From NCBI GenBank assembly GCA_019638775.1, contig JAHBTD010000002.1, positions 1,097,334 to 1,161,333 of the forward strand: 64,000 bases of DNA, given 5' to 3'. Positions 59,433 to 64,000 of the stretch are shown one piece after another (positions within the stretch are counted from its first letter, which is position 1; every line of letters starts with the position of its first letter). The notes beneath the pieces were generated by a model that saw only the letters and a program-made list of their open reading frames with translations, was not told the DNA's origin and did no database searches. The stretch is from Fimbriimonadaceae bacterium. GTDB taxonomy: Bacteria > Armatimonadota > Fimbriimonadia > Fimbriimonadales > Fimbriimonadaceae. The position numbers and the translations under genes are program-made.

Positions 59433-60127
59433 AAAGCGACTGTTGCCTGCTATTGCGCCTGGAAGGGCCTTTGCAGAGCTGGGGTTACCGCTCGCGGTTT
59501 TCTGATCGGGATACGGGTATGGAGCCAACCAAGAGCGGTGTGATCGGACTAATGTGTTGCGCCCTCGGTCGGGACAGGCATGAAGGCATCAGGGATCTGG
59601 TCGGCCTTCGAATGACGGTTCTCGTCGAACAAGAAGGAAAGCTGCTCAACGACTTCCACACGGCAGGCGCAGGGGTATTCCGAGGGCAAAAGGGGTATGC
59701 AGCTCCGAAGAGCGACGGAAGCAAGGGCAAGGACGCAGTCATTATGAATAAGCGTTACCTGCAAGACGCTTCTTTCCTCGTTGCGCTCGAAGGCCCAAGG
59801 GAGTTGCTTGAGCGGATTGCGGCGGCTTTAGACGACCCCATCTGGCCGCTAAGCCTTGGGCGCAAATCCTGTCCGCCAGCGACCAGGGTTCTTGTCGGAA
59901 TCTTCGAAGGCGATGTGCTGGATATGCTCAGCACCGCCTTAGATGAGACCAATGTGAACGGTCACCAACGCTTTGGACGCACACATAGATGCATTCGGGA
60001 ATTAGAGCCGGGTGACTTCGCCGGCGAACCAATCCAAGACGTGCCGATCGAGTGGCCGGACAGACAAACGAGAAAATACGGCATTCGCTACATCGAAACG
60101 ACCCTCTTAGATTTGGAGGCACAATGA
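59429..60127 (+). CDS. cas5e: Cascade subunit Cas5e (CasD)
   Basis: 232 residues, starting at TTG overlapping the cas7e stop. It binds the 5' handle of the crRNA. Visible are LLRLEGPLQSWGYRSRFSDRDTGMEPTKSGVIGLMCCALG (8-47), which is the family's N-terminal signature, then DFHTAGAGVFRGQKGYA, RYLQDASFLVALEG and SLGRKSCPP. The TTG start is odd but no other codon fits. It overlaps cas6e by four bases (ATGA). Confidence 0.94.
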   Translation: MKSDCCLLLRLEGPLQSWGYRSRFSDRDTGMEPTKSGVIGLMCCALGRDRHEGIRDLVGLRMTVLVEQEGKLLNDFHTAGAGVFRGQKGYAAPKSDGSKGKDAVIMNKRYLQDASFLVALEGPRELLERIAAALDDPIWPLSLGRKSCPPATRVLVGIFEGDVLDMLSTALDETNVNGHQRFGRTHRCIRELEPGDFAGEPIQDVPIEWPDRQTRKYGIRYIETTLLDLEAQ

Positions 60128-60768
60128 TTCTGTCCCGAATCCAACTCAATCCGTTTCACGCTAGAACGTACGCTTTGGTCGGTGATGCTTACGAGCTTCA
60201 TCGGCGGTTATGTGGCTGCTTTTCGAGTTCACGCCAAGAAGCGTCCGTCCTGTTTAGGATTGAGCCCGGCCCTGTCCTTCTCGTTCAGAGTGAGTTTGAA
60301 CCTGATTGGAGCAAATTCGGCGAACCCAGCGAAGTTTTCAAATCGAAGCCCGAGTGCAAACTGTTCAGTCCGGAATTTGCGCAAGGTCAACGCCTTATTT
60401 TTCGCTTGAGGTGCCGTCCGTGCAAAAAGCATGCGGAGGAAGGAAGTAAACACAGCAAGCTTCGGTTCTTACGTACCGAAACGGAAAGGCTGGAATGGCT
60501 CAAACGGCAAGGCAAGAAGTATGGATTCGTCGTTGAATCGGTCGAAGCGACATACGAACGATGGATAGACACGAAGCAGGCTTACCAACGCGAAACCGAA
60601 GATGCGAGTAGGATAGACAGGAAGGCTTCAGATCTGCCAGCGATTAGATTCGACGGCATTATTACTGTGACCGATCCTGCCCATTTCCTTAGTGCTCTGA
60701 AGTCCGGTATCGGTCCGCAAAAAGCATATGGCTTCGGACTCTTAAGTGTAGCGAGGGATCAAGCGTAA
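60124..60768 (+). CDS. cas6e: crRNA endonuclease Cas6e (CasE)
   Basis: 214 residues from MILSRIQLNPFHARTYALVG. Its active-site His is at residue 26 (ELH), the position used in the Thermus enzyme, and the C-terminal glycine-rich loop GIGPQKAYGFGLLSVAR binds the repeat stem. It cuts the repeat after the CCCCAC/GTGGGG hairpin to leave the 8-base handle AUGAACCG. It is the last gene of the Cascade operon. A 609-base gap with the candidate regulatory module follows it. Confidence 0.95.
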   Translation: MILSRIQLNPFHARTYALVGDAYELHRRLCGCFSSSRQEASVLFRIEPGPVLLVQSEFEPDWSKFGEPSEVFKSKPECKLFSPEFAQGQRLIFRLRCRPCKKHAEEGSKHSKLRFLRTETERLEWLKRQGKKYGFVVESVEATYERWIDTKQAYQRETEDASRIDRKASDLPAIRFDGIITVTDPAHFLSALKSGIGPQKAYGFGLLSVARDQA

Positions 60769-60877
60769 GCGAGTCGGCATAGCAACCTGAACGCTTCGCG
60801 GGAGCTACTGCCTTATCCCATGCAGACAGCGACTTCTTCTTGGCTGCCTGTAGTATTTTTCCAAAACCAGAAATGAA

Positions 60878-60910
60878 ATGTTCTCAGCTTGAAACGACTT
60901 GTCGTATAAT
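60878..60910 (+). promoter_or_regulatory. Promoter with built-in Cascade target site
   Basis: TATAAT at 60905-60910, with a poor -35 (TTCTCA at 60881-60886, spacing 18). Read on the minus strand, the bases just upstream of it are AAG (60900-60898) followed by TCGTTTCAAGCTGAGAACA. The pseudo-spacer at 61284-61303 agrees with this sequence at 16 of 20 positions: positions 1-5, 7-11, 13-17 and 19 match, and 6, 12, 18 and 20 do not. AAG is the PAM of E. coli type I-E, on the correct side. Binding by Cascade would cover the promoter. Confidence 0.75.
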
Positions 60911-60916
60911 ATAGAA

Positions 60917-61030
60917 GAAGTGCCGACTTCAAAAAATGAAGCCGGCGTGAGCGAGAACCGAAGTCCTCAAACTCCGATCAAAAACAGTTTGACATAATGT
61001 TGCTCGCACACGCCGTGGCGCCTCAAGGAG
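60917..61030 (+). ncRNA. Structured leader RNA before the small ORF
   Basis: From the predicted start of transcription to the ribosome-binding site. Contains a hairpin GCCGaCTTC/GAAGcCGGC (60922-60930 and 60938-60946) and a long stem GGCGTGAGCGAG/CTCGCACACGCC (60944-60955 and 61003-61014, 11 of 12 pairs; it competes with the hairpin's right arm for three bases) that encloses a smaller CAAACT/AGTTTG hairpin. A structured 5' untranslated region of the small ORF, or an independent RNA. Confidence 0.45.
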
Positions 61031-61036
61031 ATCCTT

Positions 61037-61279
61037 ATGGATACATTTATTATCGCCGCATGGCATAAAGCGACGCCCATACCTAACCAAGACAGCGATC
61101 GTGTGCGACTTGACCCTTGTGGAACGCCCATAGCTTTTGACGACTACGGCAAAGGCTATGGTTATGGCTGGGATGTAGGCCCGCTGTCTCCAAGAAGTAT
61201 TAATGATTTTGCAACTGTTCGACCAATTCATTGGCGGAATTTGCAAAAGCTGCGACAGGCCGCACATTCGTGGGGATGA
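61037..61279 (+). CDS. Degenerate HNH-endonuclease-like small protein
   Basis: 80 residues with a good ribosome-binding site (AAGGAG, nine bases before the ATG). It keeps the frame of a known small HNH-nuclease family: W-x-K-x-x-x-I-P near the start, RLDPCGTPIAFDDYGKG, then YGWDVGPLSPRS where active members have YGWE-x-DH-x-P, and RPIHWRN where they have NLQPLHWENN. So the DH and the final N-x-x-K are missing (G-P replaces D-H): it should lack nuclease activity. Its last eight codons and stop lie inside the first degenerate CRISPR repeat (61255-61283). It could be a toxin, a DNA-binding regulator or a structural accessory protein. Confidence 0.7.
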   Translation: MDTFIIAAWHKATPIPNQDSDRVRLDPCGTPIAFDDYGKGYGYGWDVGPLSPRSINDFATVRPIHWRNLQKLRQAAHSWG

Positions 61280-61332
61280 ACCGTCGTTACAAGCGGAGAA
61301 AACAACCGCCCCACGATAGTGGGGAATTCTAT
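61255..61332 (+). CRISPR. Minimal pseudo-CRISPR (repeat-like, 20-base spacer-like, repeat-like)
   Basis: Repeat-like 1 (61255-61283) matches the array repeat at 22 of 29 bases, with the last 16, including the handle ATGAACCG, identical. The spacer-like part is 61284-61303. Repeat-like 2 (61304-61332) matches the first 22 bases at 19 positions, keeping the CCCCAC/GTGGGG stem, and loses the handle half. This is what one functional crRNA needs: a 5' handle from the first repeat and a 3' hairpin from the second. The pseudo-spacer targets the promoter at 60905-60910. The layout matches the minimal CRISPRs of CreA or CreR RNAs. Confidence 0.85.
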
Positions 61333-61337
61333 ATAAT
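61332..61337 (+). promoter_or_regulatory. -10-like box before cas1
   Basis: TATAAT 41 bases before the cas1 start, just behind the second degenerate repeat. No -35 is seen at the right distance, so the box may not be used; alternatively cas1 is read from the upstream promoter. Confidence 0.35.
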
Positions 61338-61377
61338 TCTGATGGGTTAATTAAGAGTTGGATGTGCTGGGGAAAAT

Positions 61378-62316
61378 ATGCCTGCAGACCTTCATCTGTT
61401 GCCAAAGCTTAGGGATAGGCTGAGTTACGTCTATATTGAGCATGCCGTTGTCGAGAGGGAGGAATCGGCAATCGCGGTTTACGATGACGATGGCTTTACT
61501 CAAATTCCAATCGCTTCGATTGCTCTCTTAATGTTAGGTCCAGGTACCAAGATCAGCCATGCTGCTATCGACATCCTGGCACGGAACAATTGCTTGGCAG
61601 CCTGGGTAGGGGAGGGCGCTGTCAGAATGTACGCCTTTGGAACGGGTGGCACCCATTCCGCCGTCCGGTTAATGCGTCAGGCGGAGCTGGTGAGCGATCC
61701 ACCGGCGCGGCTTAGGGTTGTTCGCAAGCTCTACGGCATGCGCTTCCCAGAAGCTCTTTCTGACGATTTGTCGATCGAGCAGCTTCGAGGAAAGGAGGGT
61801 TTGCGCGTTCGGAGCGCATACAAGGAGGCAGCTGAGAAGTATGGAGTGGAGTGGTCTGGGAGAAACTACGACCGCAACGCCTGGCAAGGTTCTGATCCGG
61901 TCAACCGCGCCTTGTCGGCTGCCAACGCCTGCCTATACGGAGTCTGCCACACTGCTATCCTTTCTATGGGCTTCAGTCCTGCGTTGGGCTTTATCCACAC
62001 GGGCAAGCAGCTGTCCTTTGTGTACGATGTCGCGGACCTATATAAGCTTGACATCGCTGTTCCAGCCGCCTTTTCCGCCGCTAAGGAAGGTGCTGACCAG
62101 ATAGACAGGCGCGTACGTTTAGCGATGCGGGATCGGTTTAGGGAAAGCCGTTTCCTCAGTCAGGTTTCTCTCGACCTGATGAGCCTGTTTGCAGATGATC
62201 TTCCTGATGAGGAACTGGAAGTTTACGACGACGACCCTGCGTTGCCTGCAGATCTTTGGGGACCTGAGGATGATTGTAATAGTAGTTCGAACAGTGAAAC
62301 CTCGACTGAGGGGTGA
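61378..62316 (+). CDS. cas1: CRISPR adaptation integrase Cas1 (type I-E)
   Basis: 312 residues. Forms the Cas1-Cas2 integrase that adds spacers at the leader end. Family features: LHLLPKLRDRLSYVYIEHAVVEREESAIAVYDDDG (about 5-39), LMLGPGTKISHAAIDILARNNCLAAWVGEGAVRMY (about 55-89), the metal residues Glu in KEGLRVRSAY, His in GFIHTGKQLSF and Asp in YDVADLYKLD. The ATG is preceded by GCTGGGG. It follows the regulatory gap after cas6e and overlaps cas2 by 47 bases. Confidence 0.96.
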   Translation: MPADLHLLPKLRDRLSYVYIEHAVVEREESAIAVYDDDGFTQIPIASIALLMLGPGTKISHAAIDILARNNCLAAWVGEGAVRMYAFGTGGTHSAVRLMRQAELVSDPPARLRVVRKLYGMRFPEALSDDLSIEQLRGKEGLRVRSAYKEAAEKYGVEWSGRNYDRNAWQGSDPVNRALSAANACLYGVCHTAILSMGFSPALGFIHTGKQLSFVYDVADLYKLDIAVPAAFSAAKEGADQIDRRVRLAMRDRFRESRFLSQVSLDLMSLFADDLPDEELEVYDDDPALPADLWGPEDDCNSSSNSETSTEG

Positions 62317-62563
62317 ACTCAGTAGATGGATGGTTGAGTTTCAAGCTGGAGTCTTCGTCGGCAATATGCCCGGACGAGTGCGGGATCGACTTTGGGAGAA
62401 GATACTTGAGGAAGAAGGGAGCGCGATCATGGTCCATTCAGCACGAACTGAGCAGGGTTACGCCGTTCGTTGCCATGGCGAGCCAGACCGGCGTCCAGTA
62501 GATTTTGAAGGTTTAGTCCTGATGCGGTATGTTGGAAAGCAGAAAACTACCGTCGCACCTTGA
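62270..62563 (+). CDS. cas2: CRISPR adaptation protein Cas2 (type I-E)
   Basis: 97 residues from MIVIVVRTVKPRLRGELSRW. The ferredoxin-like Cas2e fold is recognisable: VKPRLRGELSRWMVEF, GVFVGNMPGRVRDRLWEKI (about 28-46) and a C-terminal FEGLVLMRYVGK. It bridges two Cas1 dimers. The start lies within cas1, 47 bases before its stop, in a different frame. The stop codon overlaps the -35 box of the array promoter. Confidence 0.94.
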   Translation: MIVIVVRTVKPRLRGELSRWMVEFQAGVFVGNMPGRVRDRLWEKILEEEGSAIMVHSARTEQGYAVRCHGEPDRRPVDFEGLVLMRYVGKQKTTVAP

Positions 62564-62607: not shown

Positions 62608-64000
62608 AATCGCCCCACGCTCGTGGGGATGAACCGAAGTGGGGCAAGTCATTCAAGTCCGATAGAACAATCGCCCCACGCTCGTGGGGATGAACCGGCG
62701 GCTGATCCGGTGCTGAAGTCCCACCCAAGAATCGCCCCACGCTCGTGGGGATGAACCGAACCCCTTTTACGGTTGTCTTCATTGTGTCGTAATCGCCCCA
62801 CGCTCGTGGGGATGAACCGGGGATTGTCAATCCTCAGCGTGGACCGTTCGAAATCGCCCCACGCTCGTGGGGATGAACCGGTTGCGATGGCGGGGAATGC
62901 TATCCGGTACAGAATCGCCCCACGCTCGTGGGGATGAACCGAAACCCAGGCGGGCAACTGTGAGTTGGTCCTGAATCGCCCCACGCTCGTGGGGATGAAC
63001 CGGACGATGAGCGAAAGGTCTGAGAGATGGTTGAAATCGCCCCACGCTCGTGGGGATGAACCGTGCCCCGGCGTTTTGGTGGGAGGGTAGCGATGAATCG
63101 CCCCACGCTCGTGGGGATGAACCGGTCTCGCTTAAGCTGTTCGATGTTTTGAAGTCAATCGCCCCACGCTCGTGGGGATGAACCGATCCTCACCATCACC
63201 GGACAAGACGCCCTCTAAATCGCCCCACGCTCGTGGGGATGAACCGTATAGCACGGGCTCCGTGATTCCGCACGCAGCAATCGCCCCACGCTCGTGGGGA
63301 TGAACCGGACCGGGCGACGGGTTGGGTCGCATTGGAGGAAATCGCCCCACGCTCGTGGGGATGAACCGAGCGAGCACGATTCGCGGGTGGCAAAGTTCGC
63401 AATCGCCCCACGCTCGTGGGGATGAACCGAACGGTTGGGTTCTACGTAATCCCGATGGCAGAATCGCCCCACGCTCGTGGGGATGAACCGCACCAGTCAG
63501 CCGGATCCTCGGTATTGCGCTGAATCGCCCCACGCTCGTGGGGATGAACCGACGAACGCTCTGGCAGTGGCTGGGGTTCACCAAATCGCCCCACGCTCGT
63601 GGGGATGAACCGTGCAGAGCCCTATCAAAAACCTGGCAAGGATGAATCGCCCCACGCTCGTGGGGATGAACCGGACTCAGAGAACGGGGACCGTCTAAGG
63701 CTCCAAATCGCCCCACGCTCGTGGGGATGAACCGATGGATATGACTACATATTTCACATGTCTAATAATCGCCCCACGCTCGTGGGGATGAACCGGCGTG
63801 AGCGAGCATAACAAAGCCCTGGCGCAAAATCGCCCCACGCTCGTGGGGATGAACCGTGCAAGGCGCGATCGCTCGAGCCGCGGCCCGAAATCGCCCCACG
63901 CTCGTGGGGATGAACCGCGCAAAGCAAACGCATTCGAAGGTTTGCCCTTAATCGCCCCACGCTCGTGGGGATGAACCGAAGGTGGAGATGGTCTTCCCGC
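62608..64000 (+). CRISPR. Type I-E CRISPR array, 23 repeats visible, cut by window end
   Basis: A 29-base repeat starting AATCGCCCCACGCTC and ending GTGGGGATGAACCG recurs at an exact 61-base period from 62608 to 63950: 23 repeats without a single mismatch and 22 complete 32-base spacers, plus 22 bases of the next one. Hairpin CCCCAC/GTGGGG; handle AUGAACCG. Leader end is at the left (cas2 side), so the newest spacers are there. Perfect conservation, the leader promoter and complete cas genes argue for an active array. No two spacers looked the same by eye. Confidence 0.98.

Follow-up and report, generated by a model that had tools for sequence, protein, structure and literature searches.

The locus

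The window, by which is meant the whole 64,000-nucleotide stretch of Fimbriimonadaceae DNA analysed here, contains a type I-E CRISPR-Cas locus with cas3, cas8e, further Cascade genes, cas6e, cas1, cas2 and an array; cas3, cas8e, cas6e, cas1 and cas2 were named by Pfam, and cas11, cas7 and cas5 by operon order. Between cas6e and cas1 lies a gap of 609 bp, and within it come, in this order, a promoter-like site, a leader of about 120 nt, an ORF of 80 amino acids (the cargo ORF) and a mini-CRISPR made up of two decayed repeats (psiR1 and psiR2) around a 20-nt pseudo-spacer (psiS), with 45 bp from the end of psiR2 to the start of cas1. The features are as follows.

60124..60768, plus strand: cas6e (PF08798, E 5.6e-46), the upstream neighbour
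60878..60897, minus strand: target (protospacer) of psiS, 16/20 identical, with mismatches at 6, 12, 18 and 20
60881..60910, plus strand: predicted promoter TTCTCA-18-TATAAT, 10/12 matches, its −35 element wholly within the target
60898..60900, minus strand: PAM AAG (CTT on the plus strand), read from the sequence
60917..61036, plus strand: predicted structured 5' leader of the cargo mRNA, from an inferred transcription start
61025..61030, plus strand: Shine-Dalgarno-like AAGGAG, read from the sequence, 6 nt before the ATG
61037..61279, plus strand: cargo ORF, 80 aa, a degenerate small HNH-family protein by its homologues, alignments and model
61255..61283, plus strand: psiR1, 23/29 to the array repeat, stem with 5/6 pairs (by eye), 8-nt handle ATGAACCG intact
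61284..61303, plus strand: psiS, the 20-nt pseudo-spacer, read from the sequence
61304..61332, plus strand: psiR2, 19/29 to the array repeat, all within the first 22 bases, stem with 6/6 pairs, handle decayed
61378..62316, plus strand: cas1 (PF01867), a possible read-through target of the cargo promoter
62270..62563, plus strand: cas2 (PF09707, E 9.9e-31)
62608..64000, plus strand: main CRISPR array, 29-nt repeat in a 61-bp period, extending to the contig end

With a repeat of 29 nt and a period of 61 bp the array spacers are thus 32 nt long. Another contig of the same genome (G000:C1:1-1774) opens with repeats of 61-bp period and is probably the continuation of the window array, which ends at 64000. 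A Cas1 search of genome contigs gave 2 loci only. The genome has a second, divergent I-E system (L039, on G000:C22) with a cas6e that is 35% identical, and there cas1 sits within about 90 bp of cas6e and no HNH-plus-guide unit is present. The repeat of this second system is GTGTTCCCCGCGCGAGTGGGGATGAACCG, the last 14 bases of which are identical to those of the window repeat, and so cross-use of guides between the two systems is possible.

Two repeats decayed in opposite directions

The two repeats have lost different halves. In psiR1 all 8 bases of the handle (61276-61283) are kept, together with 15 of the first 21 bases and one stem mismatch (by eye), and the TGA stop of the cargo ORF falls inside this handle; in psiR2 it is the hairpin that is kept, the changes within the first 22 bases all lying outside the stem (by eye). 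Divergent decay of two repeats of this kind has been described for creA genes (PMC8501985). The preliminary description of the locus had scored the kept half of psiR2 at 19/22, which holds, and psiR1 at 22 matches where 23/29 are found; the coordinates it gave for the elements all agree with the sequence. When folded alone, the psi-array RNA is predicted to pair psiR1 with psiR2 rather than to form two repeat hairpins, and is modestly stable (z −1.88). The psiR2 hairpin was scored as terminator-like, and so read-through into cas1 is disfavoured.

A pseudo-spacer that matches the predicted promoter

Read from 60897, the minus strand agrees with psiS at positions 1-5, 7-11, 13-17 and 19. The mismatches within positions 1-19 are thus those first reported, at 6, 12 and 18 only, and position 20 is mismatched too; the target adjoins AAG and stands upstream of a TATAAT hexamer (60905-60910), also as had been claimed. 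Positions 6, 12 and 18 are ones that type I Cascade leaves unread, 18 by the every-sixth rule. For creA guides positions 6 and 12 have been tested and are not required, and positions 1-5 and 7-11 are (PMC8501985).

For a test of chance the guide was held fixed and 486 bp of the gap were shuffled 4000 times with dinucleotides kept, the score being the 15 non-flipped positions among 1-17. The observed pair scores 15/15 with AAG, and the best of the 4000 shuffles reached 12 with AAG (1 shuffle); when no PAM was demanded shuffles reached 14 (1 shuffle) and 13 (2 shuffles) of 15. Across the 64-kb window the next-best sites for psiS differ from it at 4 non-flipped positions, and AAG flanks none of them. 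Over the 4.3-Mb genome nowhere but psiS and its target carries the 16-position pattern without a mismatch; a single other site departs from it by 1 mismatch and three do so by 2. A two-repeat pseudo-CRISPR with a self-matching pseudo-spacer between cas6e and cas1 is therefore confirmed as real.

TTCTCA-18-TATAAT is the only promoter-like site in 60700-61420, and shuffles contain such sites at a mean of 0.8, so that the site alone is not significant. The leader region (60915-61045) has a predicted fold of −42.6 kcal/mol (z −4.28), and none of 200 shuffles folds as low. Rfam gave one match, a sub-threshold group II intron (22.2 against 34.5 bits).

The cargo ORF as a relative of small HNH proteins

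The cargo ORF has no match in Pfam, PHROGs or NCBIfam; a direct protein database search with it alone returned only itself, the phages searched gave no match, and plasmids gave one at E 0.07. When 291 genomes of the phylum were searched in six frames, and many weaker rows set aside, five homologues in other genomes were obtained (E 1.6e-9 to 3.3e-4; 28-38% identical). They are related to small HNH proteins whose motif resembles YGWEIDHI...NLxPLxWENN. The homology to small HNH endonucleases (PF01844) spans about 60-70 residues, and the family profile reaches 4726 proteins at E 1e-5, with about 110 of the best 120 marked PF01844.

The D-H, N and N of the HNH motif have a catalytic role. The window ORF was aligned with 108 of the best 120 proteins, the remaining twelve being omitted. 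Of these 108 relatives, a set of best hits and hence biased toward the motif, 108 have the D, 108 the H, 107 the first N and 108 the second N; in the window copy these positions are taken by G48-P49, T60 and L69. The window protein keeps W9, R24, D26, C28, G38, G44, W45, W66 and N68, is further altered at V8, K25, E46, D56, L61 and K72, and lacks three residues after S54. A model built from the alignment has a mean pLDDT of 89 (74 to 89 over five models) and shows two strands (45-49, 61-65) followed by a helix (66-78). A Foldseek search of the model against the PDB gave no E below 0.001, and several HNH domains are among its 18 weak rows. The window cargo is thus an HNH relative whose frame is open and whose motif is lost, and with these residues gone nuclease toxicity cannot be assumed for it.

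A second instance in the same family

In another genome of the same family (G023) a homologue of the cargo lies just beyond the far end of the I-E array. Its HNH ORF has the D-H, N, N motif intact and matches PF01844 at 3.4e-6, and directly 3' of its stop codon there are decayed repeats and a short pseudo-spacer. This pseudo-spacer matches the minus strand at L038:11607, at AAG and about 160 bp before the HNH ORF, in 14 of 15 read positions when an 8-nt handle is taken; the mismatch at a read position is at 9, and 6, 12 and all from 18 onward differ as well. Among 4000 shuffles the top score was 12 when AAG was demanded and 13 when any PAM was allowed. Set to a handle of 7 nt, the register gave 12/17 only. 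Both repeats keep 7/8 handle bases, and so divergent decay is weaker here than in the window. Within 3.9 kb downstream of this HNH-plus-guide unit no cas gene occurs.

A strict promoter scan of the G023 unit found none; TATAAC and TAATAT hexamers can be seen by eye in or beside the target. The PAM stands 4 nt from a −10-like hexamer in the window and in G023, where the promoter is weak. The G023 leader is also structured (z −2.49), and in both leaders short complementary stretches occur near the Shine-Dalgarno sequence (by eye).

The preliminary description had proposed a mini-CRISPR of CreA or CreR type that targets the promoter predicted for its own module, and had not chosen between the small ORF and cas1-cas2 as the cargo. 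The anatomy fits the first proposal, and the layout recurs in an independent relative. As to the second point, the HNH homology and a G023 copy that has no cas gene downstream make the small ORF the likelier cargo, and because of G023 cas1-cas2 are unlikely to have been the original target.

Survey of the phylum and of other HNH loci

With the window Cas1, 40 places were found in 38 of the 291 phylum genomes; all were taken as I-E-like, cas6e beside cas1 being confirmed in 30. Guides were scanned anchored on the handle, with repeats masked, at least 7/8 handle bases, a PAM-flanked target and at least 13/15 read positions. With no limit on distance (51 stretches, 1618 guides) 11 rows reached at least 13/15. 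A guide-to-target limit of 40-900 bp was set after that result was known, and drops five of these rows (L090, L096, L099, L038 and L103, at 12, 30, 3959, 14,639 and 10,978 bp), of which that in L096 is 14/15. When 6/8 handle bases were allowed there were 14 pairs against 5 for reversed guides, and so only matches at 7/8 are trusted. Over all 40 places, with handles of 7-8/8, 7 of 1823 guides match a PAM-flanked site 40-900 bp off at 13/15 or better, against 0 reversed and 1 complemented control guides. The seven are those of the window genome (G000), G023, G156, G063 (15/15), G190 (14), G062 (13) and G215 (13). The G156 pair (L099) consists of two similar spacers of one array and is left out of the module count. 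Absences mean little on short contigs such as that of G260 (3 kb).

The mini-CRISPRs of G063, G062, G215 and G190 have targets 150-159 bp away, flanked by AAG or ATG. These targets lie a short way upstream of cas3 or cas8; in G190 the gene concerned is an ORF that occupies the place of cas8 and for which tblastn gave no match. The site pairs are:

L103:7134 and 7284 (G063)
L088:1922 and 2081 (G062)
L092:2987 and 3141 (G215)
L147:7030 and 6880 (G190)

In three of these four loci an ORF of 62-76 aa with no Pfam match begins right after the target, and by reason of these orphan ORFs the four units may be CreR or CreTA.

HNH family members are rare and occur in 7 of the 291 genomes (E 1e-6). Both copies sited in I-E loci carry a guide, and those of G153, G130, G030, G033 and G226 have none; four of these five genomes are without a cas1 match, and in G226 the HNH gene is at a contig end. 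One of them (L042:3990-4199 in G033, a genome 68% complete and without a cas1 match) is an HNH relative with the altered motif YGWVIGRL and a stop codon in the matched stretch. For HNH copies outside I-E loci, 0 of 167 handle-anchored guides hit in 25 loci (16 viral, 4 plasmid, 5 from the phylum). Beside viral copies further pairs appear at handles of 4-6/8, several in repeats or low complexity, and none at 7/8; handle-free scans of the other HNH loci gave scattered pairs of 13-14/15 with varied PAMs and no handle.

The gap between cas6e and cas1 is variable. G008 and the second I-E system of the window genome have almost no gap and lack the insert. Other sequence fills the gap in G146 and G169 (552 and 539 bp) and in G156 and G023 (269 and 274 bp; loci L049, L051, L047 and L052), that of G023 holding an 87-aa ORF with a sub-threshold zinc-ribbon match, and arrays occupy it in G260 (one spacer, second handle decayed; L057) and G083 (eight spacers; L073). 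The gap may be an insertion hotspot. A blastn search with the window gap in 85 genomes of the family gave matches in 18, all short and mostly to array repeats. The truncated-array pattern, sought in the 291 genomes, matched in G000 and G063, and the G063 match, sitting inside a normal array, was dropped.

Interpretation

The reading we favour, at roughly two chances in three, is that a CreA-type guide would bring the Cascade encoded at this locus to the promoter predicted for the small HNH-family gene and so shut that gene. The decayed repeats retain the parts that a processed guide needs, and Cas6e would process the psi-array RNA to a predicted guide that starts with AUGAACCG at 61276 and ends in the psiR2 hairpin. 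Cascade with this guide would bind the target over the −35 element without cutting, leaving the promoter off; if Cascade were lost or titrated, or an anti-CRISPR inhibited it, the promoter would open and the HNH protein be made. In a unit of the G023 type that protein would be a DNA-cutting toxin which punishes Cascade loss or inhibition, and the window cargo, because its HNH-motif residues are lost, would likely be either a defused toxin or a protein that binds nucleic acid without cutting it. Any read-through into cas1-cas2 would add a control of spacer acquisition. For the window copy three readings remain, judged from its sequence: an effector that does not cut, a toxin that has been defused, or a switch now acting on cas1-cas2.

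It is quite possible that such a unit is a new kind of CRISPR addiction or alarm device, in that type I-E Cascade would restrain an HNH DNase that attacks the cell's own DNA once Cascade is lost or blocked, the window copy being disarmed and kept as a regulated DNA-binding protein that couples the alarm to cas1-cas2.

Control of acquisition in the manner of CreR, with the guide repressing a promoter whose key products are cas1 and cas2 and with the small ORF incidental, is a doubtful alternative. The want of another promoter-like site in 60700-61420 and the start of cas1 only 45 bp past psiR2 speak for it, as do the four other mini-CRISPRs of the phylum aimed upstream of cas3, cas8 or the cas8-position ORF; however, the G023 unit lies beyond the far end of its array with no cas gene after it, the second I-E system has cas1 about 90 bp from cas6e and does without the unit, and the psiR2 hairpin looks like a terminator.

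That the unit is a relict, a former HNH addiction module whose toxin is dead and whose guide and match, now without importance, survive because too little time has passed, seems unlikely. The loss of the motif positions and homologues that are just 28-38% identical speak for it, but the frame is open, the Shine-Dalgarno sequence intact and many structural residues retained, and a 15/15 match with its mismatches at flipped positions would be hard to maintain without selection.

Improbable, too, is an RNA toxin, the structured leader or its mini-ORF (ATGAAGCCGGCGTGA at 60936) being toxic as in classical CreT and the HNH ORF decayed baggage. Both leaders are structured (z −4.28 and −2.49), and CreT RNAs bear mini-ORFs and stem-loops (PMC8501985); against this the mini-ORF has neither the published type of tandem minor codons nor a close Shine-Dalgarno sequence (by eye), whereas the 80-aa ORF has a good one, an open frame and many conserved residues, and the HNH motif is intact in G023. 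An ordinary decayed mini-array matching by chance can practically be set aside, for although one-spacer (G260) and eight-spacer (G083) arrays do occupy this gap, 0 of 4000 shuffles reached the match, the exact pattern is unique in the genome and the layout is repeated in G023.

If the favoured reading, that of a guide leading Cascade to the promoter of the HNH-family gene, is true, a decayed mini-CRISPR can put a small killer gene under Cascade control. The combination of the HNH family, decayed repeats and a PAM-flanked self-match provides a search handle for more units, of which the known HNH modules are two only (window and G023). A disarmed copy in the window beside an armed one in G023 offers a test of the unit's role after toxin loss.

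Comparison with known systems

In the literature considered the cargoes repressed by CRISPR are RNAs that sequester tRNA or are bactericidal, a KilA-N protein, and a single ORF for which no homologue is annotated. A literature search, made mostly without subscription papers, found no HNH cargo under a CreA or CreTA guide in the titles, opening lines of abstracts and passages of the papers listed; here a nuclease-family cargo is seen twice, at different places of I-E loci and in one bacterial family. Earlier creTA genes were located around cas6 (PMC8501985, PMC9458426, PMC10097628). Our starting point had been the suggestion of a new example in a type I-E locus, of which the anatomy stands and the novelty of the subtype does not, since I-E CreTA and CreR are already published (PMC12055562, PMC13131331).

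Archaeal CreTA (H. hispanica, H. hubeiense) shares with the window unit two divergently decayed repeats and pairing at 1-5 and 7-11 (PMC8501985, PMC9458426), and Acinetobacter I-F CreTA shares a psiS of 20 nt, of which 17 are paired there (PMC10097628); in contrast to the window their toxins are small RNAs and their subtypes I-B and I-F (PMC8501985, PMC9458426, PMC10097628). In the window psiS pairs at 1-5 and 7-11 beside a PAM at a predicted promoter, with G023 mismatched at 9, and both units are linked to a CRISPR-Cas locus with Cascade genes. Where the toxic product was originally a small RNA, the window has an ORF of a protein family and a structured leader.

CreR, known from types I-B, I-E and V-A, likewise has a mini-CRISPR with a partial promoter match, but it aims at the promoter of the cas operon and is generally uncoupled from a toxin gene (PMC13131331, PMC12737573). 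The window promoter precedes the small ORF first and cas1-cas2 after it, and the G023 target has no cas gene beneath it.

The type I-E CreTA of Citrobacter rodentium shares the I-E locus and a crRNA-like guide with a partial match, at an I-E PAM, to the promoter region of a small ORF, and its toxicity depends on translation of that ORF (PMC12055562). It differs in that its ORF, of 96 bp and with no annotated homologue, lies in the cas3-casA gap and has the guide on the opposite strand (PMC12055562), whereas the unit described here has an 80-aa HNH-family ORF between cas6e and cas1 and a co-directional guide that overlaps the ORF's end. With the small HNH endonucleases of phages, plasmids and cyanobacteria (PF01844) the cargo is homologous, although the window copy is without the motif residues.

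CrePA shares a protein cargo under a CreA guide, and its published trigger is an anti-CRISPR (PMC12737573). Its CreP typically has a KilA-N domain (PMC12737573), whereas the window ORF is without a Pfam match and the G023 copy is an HNH protein, and so the cargo of the present unit is of HNH type.
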